Source of the DNA: Acidobacteria bacterium UBA7540
Lineage (GTDB): Bacteria > Acidobacteriota > Terriglobia > UBA7540
Assembly: GCA_002478145.1 (NCBI GenBank)
Contig: DLMI01000109.1
Span: 1-36,191 of the forward strand
Direction: 5' to 3'
DNA: 36,191 nt
Shown here: positions 5,850-27,783 of the stretch, piece by piece
Numbering within the stretch: position 1 is the stretch's first letter
How the letters are laid out: each line of letters starts with the position of its first letter
Notes under the pieces: model-generated
Databases searched by the model: none
What the model was told of the DNA's origin: nothing
The model's input: only the letters and a program-made list of their open reading frames with translations
Position numbers and translations under genes: made by a program

Positions 5850-6026
5850 CAAAGCCCAGGCCAACGGCCTGCGACGAGATAGCATCCCAAATTTAAGCCC
5901 CCAGCCCTGAAAGGGCGATATCGCTTTGAGCCCCAAAGGGGCGATCTAACAAAGCCCAGGCCAACGGCCTGGGACAAGATAGCATCCCAAATTTCAGCCG
6001 TTAGCCCTGAAAGGGCGGTACAGGTG
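5827..6026 (+). repeat. Two tandem copies of a 100-bp hairpin repeat
   Basis: The unit starting TGAGCCCCAAAGGGGCGA is present twice with a period of exactly 100 bases (5827 and 5927). Each copy contains an AGCCCAGGCCAACGGCCT hairpin and an AGCCCTGAAAGGGCG hairpin. In the second copy CCCAGGCC-AAC-GGCCTGGG (5955-5973) pairs perfectly. The first copy supplies the final codons of the OPT transporter. An inverted relative lies at 6254-6350, on the far side of a transposase remnant. Confidence 0.85.
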
Positions 6027-23177: not shown

Positions 23178-23486
23178 GGTGGAATCCTGATGAAACGTAT
23201 TTAAAATTCTGGCTGCGGCTCGACACGAGTCAAGAATCGACGGTCCAAGGTCAAAAGTGGACCGACTGGAAATGTGTGCGACAAGTTGCACAGACTCCAG
23301 CGGCTAGAATCCTACCAGAAAAAAGGCTCCTGGGATTCGGGTTTCGTGCAGCGGCGCCGTCAAGAAACCATCGACGGCCTTCAGGTTTGCACATCCTGAA
23401 GTTGCCACAAGGGAACTGGACACCTGGAAAGAGCGAAGAAGGAGGGCATTCCTAAACAGGCTGGATAGCACAAGCGGAAATTAACC
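23178..23486. other. Divergent intergenic stretch
   Basis: No gene was seen between the MBL hydrolase and the attenuator region. It holds a small dyad TTCAGG...CCTGAA near 23380-23400 and no recognisable promoter for the minus-strand gene. Confidence 0.5.
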
Positions 23487-23515
23487 TTGCGGGTGTTCTC
23501 AACCTGCGGTATACT
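23487..23515 (+). promoter_or_regulatory. Candidate sigma-70 promoter of the DAHP synthase operon
   Basis: TTGCGG (23487-23492) and TATACT (23510-23515) are separated by exactly 17 bases; the -10 matches consensus at five of six positions. Transcription should begin about 23521-23524, right at the ATG of the leader peptide, making it a leaderless or nearly leaderless reading frame. Confidence 0.6.
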
Positions 23516-23523
23516 CCTGGCCG

Positions 23524-23586
23524 ATGTTCAGCGCTTACGCCAACTGGTTTAGCTACCGCTTTTGGGGCTTTAGCCCCAGTGGGTAG
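23524..23586 (+). CDS. Aromatic-rich leader peptide of the DAHP synthase attenuator
   Basis: Twenty codons from the ATG at 23524 to the TAG at 23584-23586 encode MFSAYANW-FSYRFWGF-SPSG. Eight of twenty residues are aromatic (Phe at 2, 9, 13 and 16; Tyr at 5 and 11; Trp at 8 and 14), the exact end products of the pathway begun by the downstream enzyme. The frame is followed by mutually exclusive antiterminator and terminator hairpins. The last base of its stop codon is the first base of the antiterminator arm. There is no clear ribosome binding site, and the predicted transcription start falls within a few bases of the ATG. Starvation for any one aromatic amino acid should stall a ribosome within codons 2-16. 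The alternative is a chance frame over a dispersed GGGGCTTTAGCCCC repeat, but the composition and position make that unlikely. Confidence 0.8.
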   Translation: MFSAYANWFSYRFWGFSPSG

Positions 23587-23636
23587 AGTGGTGTTGGCCT
23601 GAACCCGGAAACAAGTCGTAATAAGCCAACCCACTC
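23586..23636 (+). promoter_or_regulatory. Antiterminator helix of the DAHP synthase attenuator
   Basis: GAGTGG-T-GTTGGC (23586-23598) pairs with GCCAAC-CCACTC (23625-23636): twelve base pairs with one bulged T. The right arm contains the whole left arm of the terminator core, so the two cannot coexist. A copy of GCCAAC inside the leader peptide (23539-23544, codons Ala6-Asn7) can pair with GTTGGC at 23593-23598, giving the classical 1:2, 2:3 and 3:4 set. Confidence 0.8.
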
Positions 23637-23653
23637 GAAGGAGTGGGTTTTTC
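23628..23653 (+). terminator. Intrinsic terminator (attenuator) before the DAHP synthase gene
   Basis: AACCCACTC-GAAG-GAGTGGGTT (23628-23636, loop 23637-23640, 23641-23649) runs into TTTTTC. The compact stem with tetraloop and T-run is a textbook Rho-independent terminator. It is placed 19 nt before the GTG start and just before the AAGGAGG at 23659-23665. It can only serve to regulate the gene that follows. Confidence 0.85.
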
Positions 23654-23671
23654 ATTTTAAGGAGGCTGGCG

Positions 23672-24709
23672 GTGATTATTTCCATGAGACTTCATGCCAC
23701 CAAAGAGGAGATTGAGCACGTTTGTGAGCGCATCGGGGAGTTTGGCTACAAAGTTCACTCCATCCAGGGCGAGGAGCGCGTGGTGATCGGCGCCGTGGGG
23801 GTCGGAGACGTCACCGCCTGCCTCGAGTCCCTGGAGGCCGCGCCCGGAGTCGAGAGCGCCGTCCGCATATCCGCGCCTTACAAGTTCGTGAGCCGGGAAT
23901 TCAAGAAGGAGCGTACCACCATCCCTGTGAATGGCGTGGAAGTGGGCGGCAGCGAATTCGCCATCATGGCCGGTCCGTGTTCGGTGGAAAGCGAAAAGCA
24001 GATCATGGAAACAGCCGAGGCCGTGGCGGCTACCGGGGCCAAGATTCTCCGGGGCGGCGCCTTCAAGCCCCGAACCTCTCCTTACGACTTCCAGGGCCTG
24101 GAGCTCGAGGGATTGAAACTCCTGGCCAAGGCGCGGCAGGCTACCGGCTTGGCCATCGTCACCGAGGTGATGAGCGAGCAGGACGTGGAGGTGGTTGCCG
24201 AGCATGCGAACATCATGCAGGTCGGCGCCCGCAACATGCAGAATTTCATGTTGCTCAAAGCGCTGGGTGAATGTCCCCGGCCGGTTCTCCTGAAGCGCGG
24301 CATGAGCTCGACCATCATGGAACTCCTCATGTCCGCCGAGTACATTACCGCCCACGGGAACCCCAACATCATGCTCTGCGAGCGCGGCATCCGGACCTTC
24401 GAGACCGCCACGCGCAATACCATGGATATCGCCGCCGTGCCACTGCTCAACGAGCTAACCCATTTGCCCGTCATCGTCGATCCCAGCCACGCCACCGGCA
24501 AGCGCAGCTTGGTGCCGGCGCTGGCGCGCGCGGCCGTGGCCGTGGGCGCGGACGGCCTGCTCATCGAAGTGCATCCTTTTCCCGAAAAAGCCTTCAGCGA
24601 CGGCGCGCAATCTCTTACCCTCGACCAGTTCCGGGCCTTGACCAACGACCTCAGGCCTTATCTGGAGTTGTGGAAGGCATCGCGCGCCTGCGCCGCCGCT
24701 GCGGTGTGA
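23672..24709 (+). CDS. aroF: 3-deoxy-7-phosphoheptulonate (DAHP) synthase, type I-beta with regulatory ferredoxin-like domain
   Basis: A 345-residue DAHP synthase that condenses phosphoenolpyruvate and erythrose 4-phosphate, the first step to Phe, Tyr, Trp and chorismate. Residues 1-70 form the N-terminal ferredoxin-like regulatory domain ([25 protein letters not shown]) known to mediate Tyr/Phe feedback in Thermotoga-type enzymes. The TIM barrel carries [45 protein letters not shown] and [15 protein letters not shown], with metal and PEP ligands intact. The start is GTG at 23672, seven bases after AAGGAGG. The gene appears to be controlled twice: allosterically by its own domain and transcriptionally by the upstream aromatic leader peptide and terminator. 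Confidence 0.95.
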
Positions 24710-24746: not shown

Positions 24747-25102
24747 CTACAGTTGAATGGCAAGGTCGCACTGGCACATCGGCGACGCTCCCTTCGCTCC
24801 GCAACGAAATGCCTCTGCAAACAACATCCAATGGGTGGCAAAGTGGTGGGCAGAGTTTTCCCGTTTAGGTCCGAAACAACACCTGAGGCGCGAAGTGGTA
24901 AAGGTGAATGGGCTTGGCGCCACTCCTATTTCGTCAGGGGTACCGCAGCGAGATTTTGAAGGCGGCAACCGGTCGCTCCTGGCCGGGGGAACAATTCGGC
25001 AAATCTTCTTGCAAAGAACGTGGTGTTCGGAATACCGTGGGGCCTGACCTGGTCGAGCCGGCCGAGGTTAGGGAATATCCGATGCCCGAAAGGGGGATGG
25101 AA
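24747..25102. other. Long leader/intergenic stretch before the epimerase
   Basis: No recognisable gene was found. The epimerase frame stays open upstream to 24908, but the added sequence has no family resemblance. A 96-codon frame at 24757-25047 also shows no known motif. No clear riboswitch or terminator was identified. Confidence 0.45.
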
Positions 25103-26146
25103 ATGAGTGCGCAACAGACCACGAAGAAAGACGATTCGATCGTAATCGGCGGAGCGGGCGGCTTTATCGGCGGCTCGCTCACCCGATACTTCCACGACCG
25201 CGGTTTCACCAGGATCCGCGCCATTGACAAGAAACCTTTGCCGGACTGGTACCAGAGAGTGCCGCGTGTTGAAAGCCTCTGCATGGACTTGAGTGAGAGG
25301 GAGAATTGTGTAAAGGCGTGCGAGGACGCCGTCGAGGTTTACAATATGGCTGCTGACATGGGGGGCATGGGCTTCATCGAGAAGTTCAGGATCGAATGCC
25401 TGCGCAGCATCCTGATCAACACCAACCTGATCGAAGCGGCCTATCAGGCGGGCGTGCAAAGGTATTTCTTCTCCTCCTCCGCCTGCGCCTACAACACCGA
25501 GCTACAGAAAGATCCGCACTGCCGGGCACTGAAAGAGTCGGACGCCTACCCCGCCATGGCGGAGAGGGGCTACGGCTGGGAAAAACTCATCTCCGAGATG
25601 TTCTGCCAGGAATACTGGGCGGAGCGCGGCTTGAAGACCTTCATCGCCCGCTTCCACAACGTCTACGGTCCCAACGGCACTTGGGACGGCGGGCGAGAAA
25701 AGGCTCCTGCGGCCATTTGCCGGAAGGTCATCGAAGCCAAGGATACCGGCAAGAACGAAATCGTAGTCTGGGGTGATGGCACGCGGACCCGCAGCTTCAT
25801 GTACATCGATGACTGCACCAAGGGCATTCACATGATCACACACTGCGAGGATCTGATCGCAACACCCATCAACCTCGGTTCCAATGAGCTCATTTCGGTC
25901 AACGACCTGGTCAGCATCGCGGAAGAAATTGGCGGGATAAAGCTCCAGCGCAAATACGACCTTGCTGCGCCCAAGGGAGTCACCGGCCGAAACAGTGACA
26001 ACACCATGATTAAGAACATCCTGAACTGGGAGCCCAGGACCCCATTTCGTGAGGGACTGGCGAAGACCTACGCCTGGATCGAACAGCAGTATCAGGACCG
26101 AAAGGCCGGCAAAGTCACGGTGCGAGAAAACTATCAAGCGGCGTAA
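25103..26146 (+). CDS. NAD-dependent epimerase similar to GDP-mannose 3,5-epimerase
   Basis: A 347-residue extended-SDR protein. IVIGGAGGFIGGSL is the NAD-binding glycine loop, AADMGGMGFI and SSSACAYNTELQ match the GDP-mannose 3,5-epimerase subfamily, and the catalytic pair is in ERGYGWEKL (Tyr-x-x-x-Lys). RFHNVYGPNGTWDGGREKAPAA and WGDGTRTRSFMYIDDC are typical later blocks. The usual reaction epimerises GDP-mannose at C3 and C5. With a kinase-like and a nucleotidyltransferase-like gene directly downstream, the substrate could be another NDP-sugar. Possible starts are 25082, 25097 and 25103. The last has AGGGGG at a good distance and is taken here. Confidence 0.85.
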   Translation: MSAQQTTKKDDSIVIGGAGGFIGGSLTRYFHDRGFTRIRAIDKKPLPDWYQRVPRVESLCMDLSERENCVKACEDAVEVYNMAADMGGMGFIEKFRIECLRSILINTNLIEAAYQAGVQRYFFSSSACAYNTELQKDPHCRALKESDAYPAMAERGYGWEKLISEMFCQEYWAERGLKTFIARFHNVYGPNGTWDGGREKAPAAICRKVIEAKDTGKNEIVVWGDGTRTRSFMYIDDCTKGIHMITHCEDLIATPINLGSNELISVNDLVSIAEEIGGIKLQRKYDLAAPKGVTGRNSDNTMIKNILNWEPRTPFREGLAKTYAWIEQQYQDRKAGKVTVRENYQAA

Positions 26147-26150
26147 GTCC

Positions 26151-26960
26151 ATGCGCACACAACAGGTGATTGAAATCACTTCGATCATCAGCGAAATTCC
26201 CTACCGAATGGCATTTGCCGGCGGTTGGATCGATCAACCCTTCGTTTCGAAACTGAACCCCACTCCACCGGGTTCCATGGTGGTGGTCGGTTTGGAGCCC
26301 ACTTTCCGGTACATGGATCGCTGCGGAATGGCAACCAGTACGCGCGAGGTTGCGCGCAAGCTGTGGAACGGCAAACTGCCGAATGGAGATCCCAGGGAGC
26401 TTACCCGCGAGCTGTATGAGGCAGAAAACAAGGGCAAGCCGGAGCCCTCCGGTTCGCAGGACATGGCGGGCTTGATTTACCCCGGAGTGAACAGGCTGGA
26501 CTATGACTACAGCTACGAGGGCGGCCACTTCCCCGTGCACGTCGAATCCAACAATGATCCGGACGTCGCCCACTGGTTGGAGGACGTGGTGCACATGGTG
26601 CCGGTCGCGCAGCGTCCTGCCGACTACAATCCCCTCGGGAAAAGGAACCTCGACCCGAAGTGGATCCAGAGGCTGGGCGCGACGGGAAAGCAGTGCTTTG
26701 ATGCCATCGTGACGAAAGACTGCAAGGCGCTGGGCGCCTCCATGAATGAGTGCATGGAGTGCTGGGAGACGATTCTGCCCCACACCGTAAGGCACCCGAC
26801 CGTCACCGTGGACTTGGCGGGAATCCTGGGTTACTACCAGTCCCGGTATGCCGGAGCCATGTACTCCGGGTGTGGTGGCGGATATCTCTACGTTGTGTCG
26901 GACGAGCCGGTGCCTGGGGGAATCCGCGTGAAGGTCAGGTACTCAAAGAAGAATGGCTGA
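26151..26960 (+). CDS. GHMP-kinase-like sugar kinase, divergent
   Basis: The 269-residue protein resembles GHMP kinases of the heptose-7-phosphate-kinase type. IPYRMAFAGGWIDQPFVSKLNP matches the N-terminal substrate strand, SGSQDMAGLIYPGVNRLDYDY matches the QDQ...GGxNxIxF segment, and MYSGCGGGYLYVVSDEP matches the C-terminal glycine-rich motif. The ATP-binding motif (normally PxGxGLGSSAA) is reduced to something like CGMATSTREVARKLW, so kinase activity is uncertain. It starts four bases after the epimerase stop and overlaps the following gene by eight bases, so the three genes are surely one operon. A role in phosphorylating a sugar before nucleotide transfer is inferred. Confidence 0.65.
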   Translation: MRTQQVIEITSIISEIPYRMAFAGGWIDQPFVSKLNPTPPGSMVVVGLEPTFRYMDRCGMATSTREVARKLWNGKLPNGDPRELTRELYEAENKGKPEPSGSQDMAGLIYPGVNRLDYDYSYEGGHFPVHVESNNDPDVAHWLEDVVHMVPVAQRPADYNPLGKRNLDPKWIQRLGATGKQCFDAIVTKDCKALGASMNECMECWETILPHTVRHPTVTVDLAGILGYYQSRYAGAMYSGCGGGYLYVVSDEPVPGGIRVKVRYSKKNG

Positions 26961-27783
26961 CGCGAAGACAGTTGTGGTGACCGGTGGTTTTGACGATTTC
27001 AAGTCCCAGCACGTTCGCTTTCTCGAGGAGGCTTCGAAGCTCGGGGGCGTGCGCGTTCTCCTTTGGTCGGACGAGACAGTGCGCGCCCTAGAAGGCCACC
27101 CCCCGCAGTTTCCTCAAGAGGAGCGGTTATATCTTCTCCAGGCTAACAGGTATGTCAAAGATGTAAGGCTGGTGACGGGGCAGGTGGACCAAGACTCCAT
27201 ACCACAGGTCGGCGGAATCAATCCTGAAATCTGGGTTGTGGAGGAGGCGAGCGACAATCCTCGGAAGCGGGCCTACGGCGAGTCACACGGTGTTGAATAT
27301 CGTGTTTTCAAGAAGACAGACCTGGGAGGCTTCCCGGCGTTGCCGTTCGATCCTAAGGGTGAGCGGTCGTCAACAAAGCGCGTGGTTGTGACCGGTTGCT
27401 ACGATTGGTTTCACTCGGGCCACGTAAAGTTTTTCGAGGAGGTCTCCGGGTTGGGCGACCTCTACGTCGTGGTGGGGCATGACGCCAACATCAAGCTGCT
27501 GAAGGGCGAAGGTCACCCGATGTTTCCACAGGACGAGCGGCGCTATATGATTCAGTCCGTGCGTTTCGTCAAGGTTGCCCTGGTATCTTCAGGACGTGGC
27601 TGGATGGATGCCGAACCGGAGGTCGCCCTCATCAAGCCGGACATATACGCGGTGAACGAAGATGGTGATGTGCCGGAAAAGCGCGCCTTTTGCAAAGAGC
27701 ACGGCATTGAATACGTCGTTTTGAAACGGACCCCCAAAGAAGGCCTGCCCAAACGGCAGAGCACCAACCTGCGGGGATTCTGA
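26953..27783 (+). CDS. Tandem nucleotidyltransferase (cytidylyltransferase-like) protein
   Basis: The 276 residues hold two consecutive copies of the cytidylyltransferase-like fold. The first (about 1-130) begins VVVTGGFDDFKSQHVRFLEEASKLG, where the usual HxGH is degenerate (SQHV). The second (about 140-276) begins VVVTGCYDWFHSGHVKFFEEVSGLG with an intact HSGH, and ends PKRQSTNLRG, like the ISSTxLR motif that binds nucleotide. This suggests one catalytic and one regulatory or structural half. Such enzymes load CTP or ATP onto sugar phosphates, alcohol phosphates or cofactors. With the preceding epimerase and kinase-like genes it could make an NDP-activated sugar. The product is unknown. Confidence 0.78.
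   Translation: MADAKTVVVTGGFDDFKSQHVRFLEEASKLGGVRVLLWSDETVRALEGHPPQFPQEERLYLLQANRYVKDVRLVTGQVDQDSIPQVGGINPEIWVVEEASDNPRKRAYGESHGVEYRVFKKTDLGGFPALPFDPKGERSSTKRVVVTGCYDWFHSGHVKFFEEVSGLGDLYVVVGHDANIKLLKGEGHPMFPQDERRYMIQSVRFVKVALVSSGRGWMDAEPEVALIKPDIYAVNEDGDVPEKRAFCKEHGIEYVVLKRTPKEGLPKRQSTNLRGF

Follow-up and report, generated by a model that had tools for sequence, protein, structure and literature searches.

A predicted ribosome-mediated attenuator with a Phe-, Tyr- and Trp-rich leader peptide upstream of the DAHP synthase gene in Acidobacteriota

Is the transcription of the DAHP synthase gene in Acidobacteriota decided by a ribosome that translates a short, aromatic-rich leader peptide? The question is raised by a 36,191-nucleotide stretch of DNA from Acidobacteria bacterium UBA7540 (contig DLMI01000109.1), referred to below as the window. 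We compared this locus with its relatives and modelled the folding of its leader RNA. We conclude that in soil acidobacteria the speed of the ribosome on Phe, Tyr and Trp codons probably decides whether the DAHP synthase gene is transcribed, and we consider it very likely, from this comparison and modelling, that the gene is under ribosome-mediated transcription attenuation on a leaderless transcript. The original prediction had proposed a promoter-like element with a 17-nt spacer, a 20-codon frame with four Phe, two Tyr and two Trp codons, a 12-bp helix, an overlapping terminator, AAGGAGG and the start of aroF; all of these were found where it had placed them or within one base. The features, all on the + strand, are as follows.

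23487..23492, +, -35-like element TTGCGG (sequence; TTG at this spacing in relatives)
23510..23515, +, -10 element TATACT, 8 nt before the leader ATG (sequence; TANNNT in relatives)
23524..23586, +, putative leader peptide gene, MFSAYANWFSYRFWGFSPSG, stop TAG (sequence; aromatic leader in 72/81 loci)
23539..23544, +, candidate segment 1, GCCAAC, able to pair with 23593-23598 (GTTGGC) (leader:arm-2 pairing over 50 loci; weak in the window)
23554..23571, +, predicted stall region, codons Y-R-F-W-G-F (core [FY]R[FY]W in relatives; aromatic codons clustered 12 to 5 codons before arm 2)
23586..23598, +, segment 2, antiterminator left arm GAGTGGTGTTGGC, overlapping the last base of the stop codon (arms of relatives)
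23625..23636, +, segment 3, GCCAACCCACTC, antiterminator right arm and terminator left arm (alignment and pair counts)
23628..23653, +, predicted intrinsic terminator: stem 23628-23649, loop GAAG, T tract; segment 4 is the right arm, 23641-23649 (conservation)
23659..23665, +, Shine-Dalgarno (SD) sequence AAGGAGG of the DAHP synthase gene (sequence)
23672..24709, +, type-I DAHP synthase gene, here called aroF, GTG start, N-terminal ferredoxin-like domain (NF006421, TIGR01361, PF00793, PF18152)

The aroF product matched NF006421 with 489 bits and TIGR01361 with 397 bits, as well as PF00793 and, at its ferredoxin-like N-terminus, PF18152. The nearest gene-like long frame upstream of the leader is on the opposite strand. 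Downstream of aroF, at 24908-27783, we noted by eye sugar-nucleotide epimerase-, kinase- and nucleotidyltransferase-like genes, none of the aromatic pathway, and aroF may be transcribed alone.

The leader frame runs from the ATG at 23524 to the TAG at 23584-23586. It is short, rich in codons for the products of the pathway and predicted to be translated. Among 1028 frames of 10-35 amino acids in the window (both strands, nested starts included), it is the sole one of at most 22 residues with eight or more F, Y or W, and no comparable aromatic frame occurred in 40 dinucleotide shuffles of the window. The peptide has Trp codons and no F-Y-F run, and no SD sequence precedes its ATG. The 163-nt leader folded better than 198 of 200 shuffles (z -2.63). 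No Rfam family, amino-acid leaders and T-boxes included, reached the gathering score in or near the leader, and the weak matches in 23450-23720 were all below it; the only match at gathering level in the window was Acido-Lenti-1 RNA (RF01687) at 5929-5973 on the - strand (38.1 bits against a gathering score of 37). The promoter (TTGCGG, 17-nt spacer, TATACT, 8 nt, ATG) was not listed by a promoter scan of the window, its -35 element matching TTGACA at 3/6 positions, and one terminator-like site was found against a mean of 1.7 in shuffles, which is not above chance. Taken alone, the promoter and terminator do not exceed chance; they and the arms become convincing because of the relatives.

The comparison set consisted of the best 80 of 256 relatives plus the window, giving 81 acidobacterial-type loci; the DAHP synthases of the 80 fetched loci showed 70-84% identity in the best segment. 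The original prediction had named homologous loci without the frame or the arms as evidence against it, and on this count the comparison did not refute it. A short ATG frame with aromatic codons was present in the DAHP synthase leader of 72 of these 81 loci, and the arms were conserved with some compensatory changes. All three of F, Y and W occurred in 66 of the 72 leaders, W being absent from those of L011, L020, L021 and L072 and Y from those of L022 and L040; L009 was counted as a leader despite having just three aromatics in 19 residues. A core [FYW]-R-[FY]-W, or a close variant, recurred among the leaders. Their composition was 14.7% F, 9.9% Y and 7.5% W (73 candidates, including the spurious leader of L027, which stands outside the 72 and inside the leader codon counts), compared with 3.7, 2.2 and 1.1% in a reference set of 30 long window frames, some of which may not be genes.

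Codon choice in the 73 candidates was also distinctive. CGA made up 45 of 61 core Arg codons, compared with 13 of 127 other leader Arg codons and 6% in aroF; the core Arg codon of the window is CGC. TTT accounted for 76% of the leader Phe codons (25% in aroF) and TAT for 41% of the leader Tyr codons (21% in aroF).

The position of the promoter points to a leaderless transcript. TANNNT ended 7-9 nt before the leader ATG in 65/72 loci, compared with 29/1008 control offsets, and TTG lay 16-19 nt upstream of the -10 box in 58 of the 65 leader loci having that box. An SD-like word preceded the leader in 4/72 loci and aroF in 53/72; in the window row only, the aroF start used lay 9 nt downstream of the real one (in frame), a shift that affects its aroF distances and SD count. 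We infer that the RNA starts at or near the leader ATG, and the probably leaderless transcript of the original prediction is supported by the -10 box in these 65 loci.

In the window, the predicted antiterminator pairs GAGTGG-T-GTTGGC with GCCAACCCACTC, forming 12 bp with a single bulged T at 23592, and the terminator alone folds with -15.4 kcal/mol. A predicted intrinsic terminator that shares an arm with the antiterminator lies before the structural gene. The script placed arm 2 in 69 of 73 candidate loci; alignment A1 contained 47 of the 69 and the folding set 50, including a few (e.g. L042, L056) whose arms are doubtful. The remaining loci were omitted because arm 2 could not be placed, mostly where it apparently lies inside the frame (e.g. 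L007, L033). The arm consensus of the 47 sequences is GAGTGG-C-GTTGG ... CCAACCCACTC-loop-GAGTGGGTTTTT. In these sequences, 89.5% of the cells of the 12 antiterminator pairs and 97.6% of those of the nine terminator pairs were paired, compared with 28.5-45.7% and 18.3-56.0%, respectively, in slid versions. Two-sided changes were found at four pairs in each helix, the four of the antiterminator being matched by 79 of 500 within-column shuffles. In L015, all three arms are altered together (GAGCGG, CCCGCTC, GAGCGGG). RNAalifold unaided recovered the terminator and not the antiterminator, as one would expect of two helices that are mutually exclusive; the antiterminator was then counted as a named structure. 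A gapless search for the antiterminator helix was uninformative (14/69 loci above shuffled arms), because the real helix carries a one-base bulge, and the alignment and pair counts were used instead.

The original prediction had also proposed that GCCAAC in the leader can pair with the left arm of the antiterminator. This pairing is possible and is supported over 50 loci: the duplex of leader and arm 2 averaged -16.8 kcal/mol, compared with -14.3 kcal/mol for synonymous re-draws (Wilcoxon 2.7e-7; the loci are mutually related, so that p-values overstate independence). The base bulged in helix 2:3 was paired in the best 1:2 duplex in 46/50 loci with five pair types, a figure that leans to pairing because the duplexes were chosen per sequence. 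The putative protector helix 1:2 was clear in the ensemble of about half of the loci; in the window it is the weakest element, because P(2:3) is still 0.94 without a ribosome. The leader was also examined for pairing with the loop of the antiterminator, and none was found (p 0.13).

The position of the ribosome was then modelled in the 50 loci, with a footprint reaching from -15 to +12 relative to the A site and with RNA that extended as far as arm 3. When the ribosome stalled at aromatic codons, the mean P(2:3) was 0.73; it was 0.61 for stalls at other codons, 0.06 with the ribosome at the stop codon and 0.42 without a ribosome. Sorted by the distance of the stall upstream of arm 2, it was 0.7-0.9 for 21 to 8 codons, 0.5-0.6 for 7 to 4, 0.35 for 3 and below 0.1 for 2 to 0. 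Aromatic stalls exceeded the stop state by more than 0.2 in 44/50 loci, and the state without a ribosome by that amount in just 25/50. In the model of the window, stalls up to codon 17 gave P(2:3) of about 0.9 or more and the stop gave 0; a ribosome stalled at F16 left the 2:3 fold, and one at the stop left 3:4. Thus, according to the model, the stall codons are set so that a halted ribosome would free segment 2 and a finishing one would cover it.

The spacing of the codons agrees with this geometry. Aromatic codons at least 9 nt from arm 2 were counted; 59 loci had such a codon, and in 46 of them the last one lay 13-18 nt before arm 2. Aromatic residues occupied slots 12, 10, 8, 7 and 5 before arm 2 in 62, 78, 82, 70 and 62% of the loci, and slots 3 to 0 in at most 4%. 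Among loci with well-placed arms, the stop codon ranged from 20 nt downstream to 11 nt upstream of the point where arm 2 begins. In this natural series of loci, the position of the stop relative to segment 2 varies and the distance of the stall codons is kept, and the series could be useful for tests of ribosome geometry.

We propose the following mechanism. RNA polymerase would start at the leader ATG or at most a base or two from it, and a ribosome would load on the leaderless 5' end. When charged Phe-, Tyr- and Trp-tRNAs are plentiful, the ribosome should reach the stop codon, which abuts segment 2, and cover this segment; the 3:4 terminator would then form and the DAHP synthase gene would remain untranscribed. 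When any of these tRNAs is scarce, the ribosome would halt over Y-R-F-W-G-F with its downstream edge just short of segment 2, which would be free to pair with segment 3, and transcription would go on. If no ribosome is on the leader, segment 1 could sequester segment 2 and favour the terminator; in the model, this effect is evident for roughly half of the relatives and is not seen for the window.

We also searched genomes with a model of the arms. A match at E <= 0.1 was found in 15/15 genomes holding fetched loci, and in the ten of these 15 whose matches were laid out, 10/10 adjoined DAHP synthase. Lower-scoring matches occurred in G006, G011, G012 and G015, and weak ones in G005, the home of L020 (best E 0.002); no further match in a genome was as strong as E 0.003. 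Within the order to which G001 belongs, this model, R1, matched 24 of 40 genomes once each, four of the 24 being sources of the model. Twenty other matched places were fetched, and a DAHP synthase start lay downstream in 19 (in L267 it was not found via the pattern used). One of the 20 places was a duplicate of L006; the other 19 loci were new, and the script found an aromatic-rich ATG leader in 17. These 17 held-out leaders contained F, Y and W in 16 cases and had a -10 box at 7-9 nt in 13. As exceptions, the leader of L265 is weak, L254 has by eye an aromatic frame with a GTG start, and the frame of L268 ends before the core. Comparison shows the frame, its codon content, the arms, their geometry, the position of the promoter and the tie to DAHP synthase to be conserved features. 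The attenuator logic and the mixed aromatic leader at DAHP synthase, as originally predicted, gain support from this conservation, the compensatory changes, the folding with positioned ribosomes and the held-out genomes.

Across the phylum, the exact element is rare. With strict filters, 13 of 396 genomes matched, with DAHP synthase beside the match in six and a trpE-like gene in one. The other six matches were rejected as this element, having by eye no convincing aromatic leader; in one of them, L101, the match is a bare terminator preceded by a frame in which six of 20 residues are aromatic. Upstream of 110 DAHP synthase genes, taken from the better AroF matches listed (one region ends at a contig end), an aromatic-rich ATG frame was present in 11, compared with a shuffle expectation of 0.6; two of the 11 were of the leaderless type, one being G001.

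Several other leaders were observed. In L093, L095 and L096 (G058, G083 and G045), where DAHP synthase is just 55% identical to that of the window, L095 and L096 have a Trp/Phe leader MRNQLADIRVTSCANWFWWPWHFTDAAWVSHRPL and L093 a close variant, with similar arms and a TACAAT box immediately upstream of the ATG. Other DAHP synthase genes (L125, L136, L156, L158 and L164) are preceded by a second type of leader, which has an SD-like stretch and Phe and Tyr without Trp; its final Pro codon and TGA lie within CCCTGAGGG, and a hairpin of the GGCCC type comes next. Before trpE-type genes (20 loci, 16/17 genomes matched), no leader was convincing by eye except in G020 (L098/L221), where a Trp- and Tyr-rich frame, listed with a GTG start and carrying GTGGCGTTGG, is followed by arms AACCCACTTC...GAAGTGGGTT, much like those of the aroF attenuator. 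Before pheA (14 loci, 14/16 genomes), none was convincing by frame content and by eye.

By target, the closest known system is the aroR leader of Corynebacterium glutamicum aroF, reportedly described by Neshat et al. in 2014. It resembles the present leaders in its aromatic codons upstream of DAHP synthase; unlike aroR, with Phe-Tyr-Phe, they carry Phe, Tyr and Trp in 66/72 cases, belong to another phylum and have conserved GAGTGG/CCCACTC arms. In E. coli, the pheL and trpL attenuators follow the same 1:2, 2:3, 3:4 logic, and their leaders are SD-led, unlike here. The ilvGMEDA leader has codons for several products of one pathway; it and the ilvB leaders are multivalent as here, but for branched-chain rather than aromatic amino acids.

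The available parts of the published accounts give further detail. They describe the Phe-Tyr-Phe leader peptide of aroR before the DAHP synthase gene aroF (PMC4046766; PMC11802643), in which stalling raises transcription, and which responds to Phe limitation, with Tyr availability having no effect despite its codon (PMC11802643). In E. coli trpL, Trp codons are followed by an Arg codon, as here (PMC1183508); unlike here, pheL and trpL each serve one amino acid and genes of a branch pathway (PMC11802643). The ilvB-type leaders are rich in branched-chain residues and Thr (PMC10272879). Leaderless leader peptides, with transcripts starting at the leader ATG, are trpL in S. meliloti and trpL, leuL and ilvL in S. 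lividans (PMC7298713, PMC8079986); compared with the present ones, they have Trp or other targets and belong to other phyla. The suggestion in the original prediction of a new attenuator class was too strong, as the aromatic leader aroR already precedes a DAHP synthase gene in a non-proteobacterium and leaderless leader peptides have been described. What appears new is the occurrence in Acidobacteriota, the combination of Phe, Tyr and Trp, the core [FY]-R-[FY]-W with Arg mostly CGA, and leader losses that coincide with an operator-like repeat. No description of an aromatic leader in Acidobacteria was found in the open-access literature searched, which does not prove absence. For Acidobacteriota, this locus would supply an attenuator of the leader-peptide kind whose target is named, together with a model that can be used for searches and a prediction that is clear.

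The idea of the original prediction that one leader would sense all three aromatic amino acids may not hold for each of them, since Tyr availability has no effect in aroR. We tentatively propose, at clearly less than an even chance, a three-input sensor at the entry of the pathway in Acidobacteriota that would read the charging of Phe-, Tyr- and Trp-tRNAs together, most of the branch genes examined having no convincing attenuator of this type. CGA is probably read slowly, and the CGA of the core would then set a pause that synchronizes the ribosome with RNA polymerase. If all three count, it would be the aromatic counterpart of the multivalent ilv leaders, in that a single RNA would add up the products of three branches at the entry enzyme. 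It is quite possible, falling a little short of even, that the same attenuator is regulated by just one or two of the amino acids (for example, Phe or Trp nearest arm 2) and that the rest are passengers. The preferred slots agree with such a restriction, W being found 7 codons before arm 2 in 27/50 loci and F or Y at 12, 10 and 8 in 31, 39 and 39, and so does the response of aroR to Phe and not to Tyr in the available account (PMC11802643); against it, all three residues are kept in 66/72 leaders, and in the model a ribosome stalled at any slot from 12 to 5 leaves a mean P(2:3) of 0.5 or more.

Readings without ribosome-mediated attenuation fit the data poorly. The recurrent Arg between aromatic codons (27/50 loci at one slot) might recall an arrest of the TnaC type, where the nascent peptide, here [FY]-R-[FY]-W, would detect free aromatic amino acids from within the exit tunnel; the peptides differ widely, however, in length and in the order and spacing of their residues, the Arg slot is Trp, Gly or Tyr in 14/50 loci, and stalling by abundant product would presumably induce a biosynthetic enzyme, which is the wrong sign, so that we consider this very unlikely. 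Structured leaders with terminators before biosynthetic genes can also be metabolite or tRNA riboswitches (T-box-like) with an incidental frame. This is most improbable here, as no Rfam family reached the gathering score in the leader region and conservation falls on codons and a pair of short arms rather than on an aptamer. Finally, since short frames are as frequent in the window as counted above and the terminator alone is at chance level, the frame could be due to chance or encode a small functional protein, with hairpins that merely terminate something upstream. We give almost no credence to this reading; the nearest gene-like long upstream frame is on the other strand, terminator, arms and frame are jointly kept upstream of DAHP synthase, and the 40 shuffles held no comparable frame.

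The leader frame was absent from L003, L013, L027, L045, L071, L074 and L075 (7/78 assessable loci); L030 and L031 are cut by contig ends and retain the terminator. In a tree of AroF with 80 rows, the leader-less loci fell in separate places: L003/L013/L045, L071/L075, L027 and L074 on a long branch. With L074 set apart, TACACC-N7-[AG]GTGGT occurred at most 200 nt upstream of aroF in 5/6 of them, with a variant in L003 by eye, and in none of the other 74 loci. By eye, all six except L027 have a -10-like box 6-9 nt before the aroF ATG itself; L027 has kept the terminator without a leader. To judge from these sequences, it looks as if the attenuator was repeatedly replaced by an inverted-repeat-like site for a DNA-binding repressor, and the system would also offer lineages with an operator-like repeat in place of a lost attenuator.

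One locus, L020 (3001-4035), has an acidobacterial-type AroF on a contig labelled Patescibacteria. By eye, a ribosome-hibernation-factor-like gene is near its aroF and a secA-like gene follows. Upstream, it has its own Phe/Tyr leader, MVNFSQNFSFFFYFTQSAETGNFELM, with a different terminator, and its AroF was likely acquired by gene transfer.
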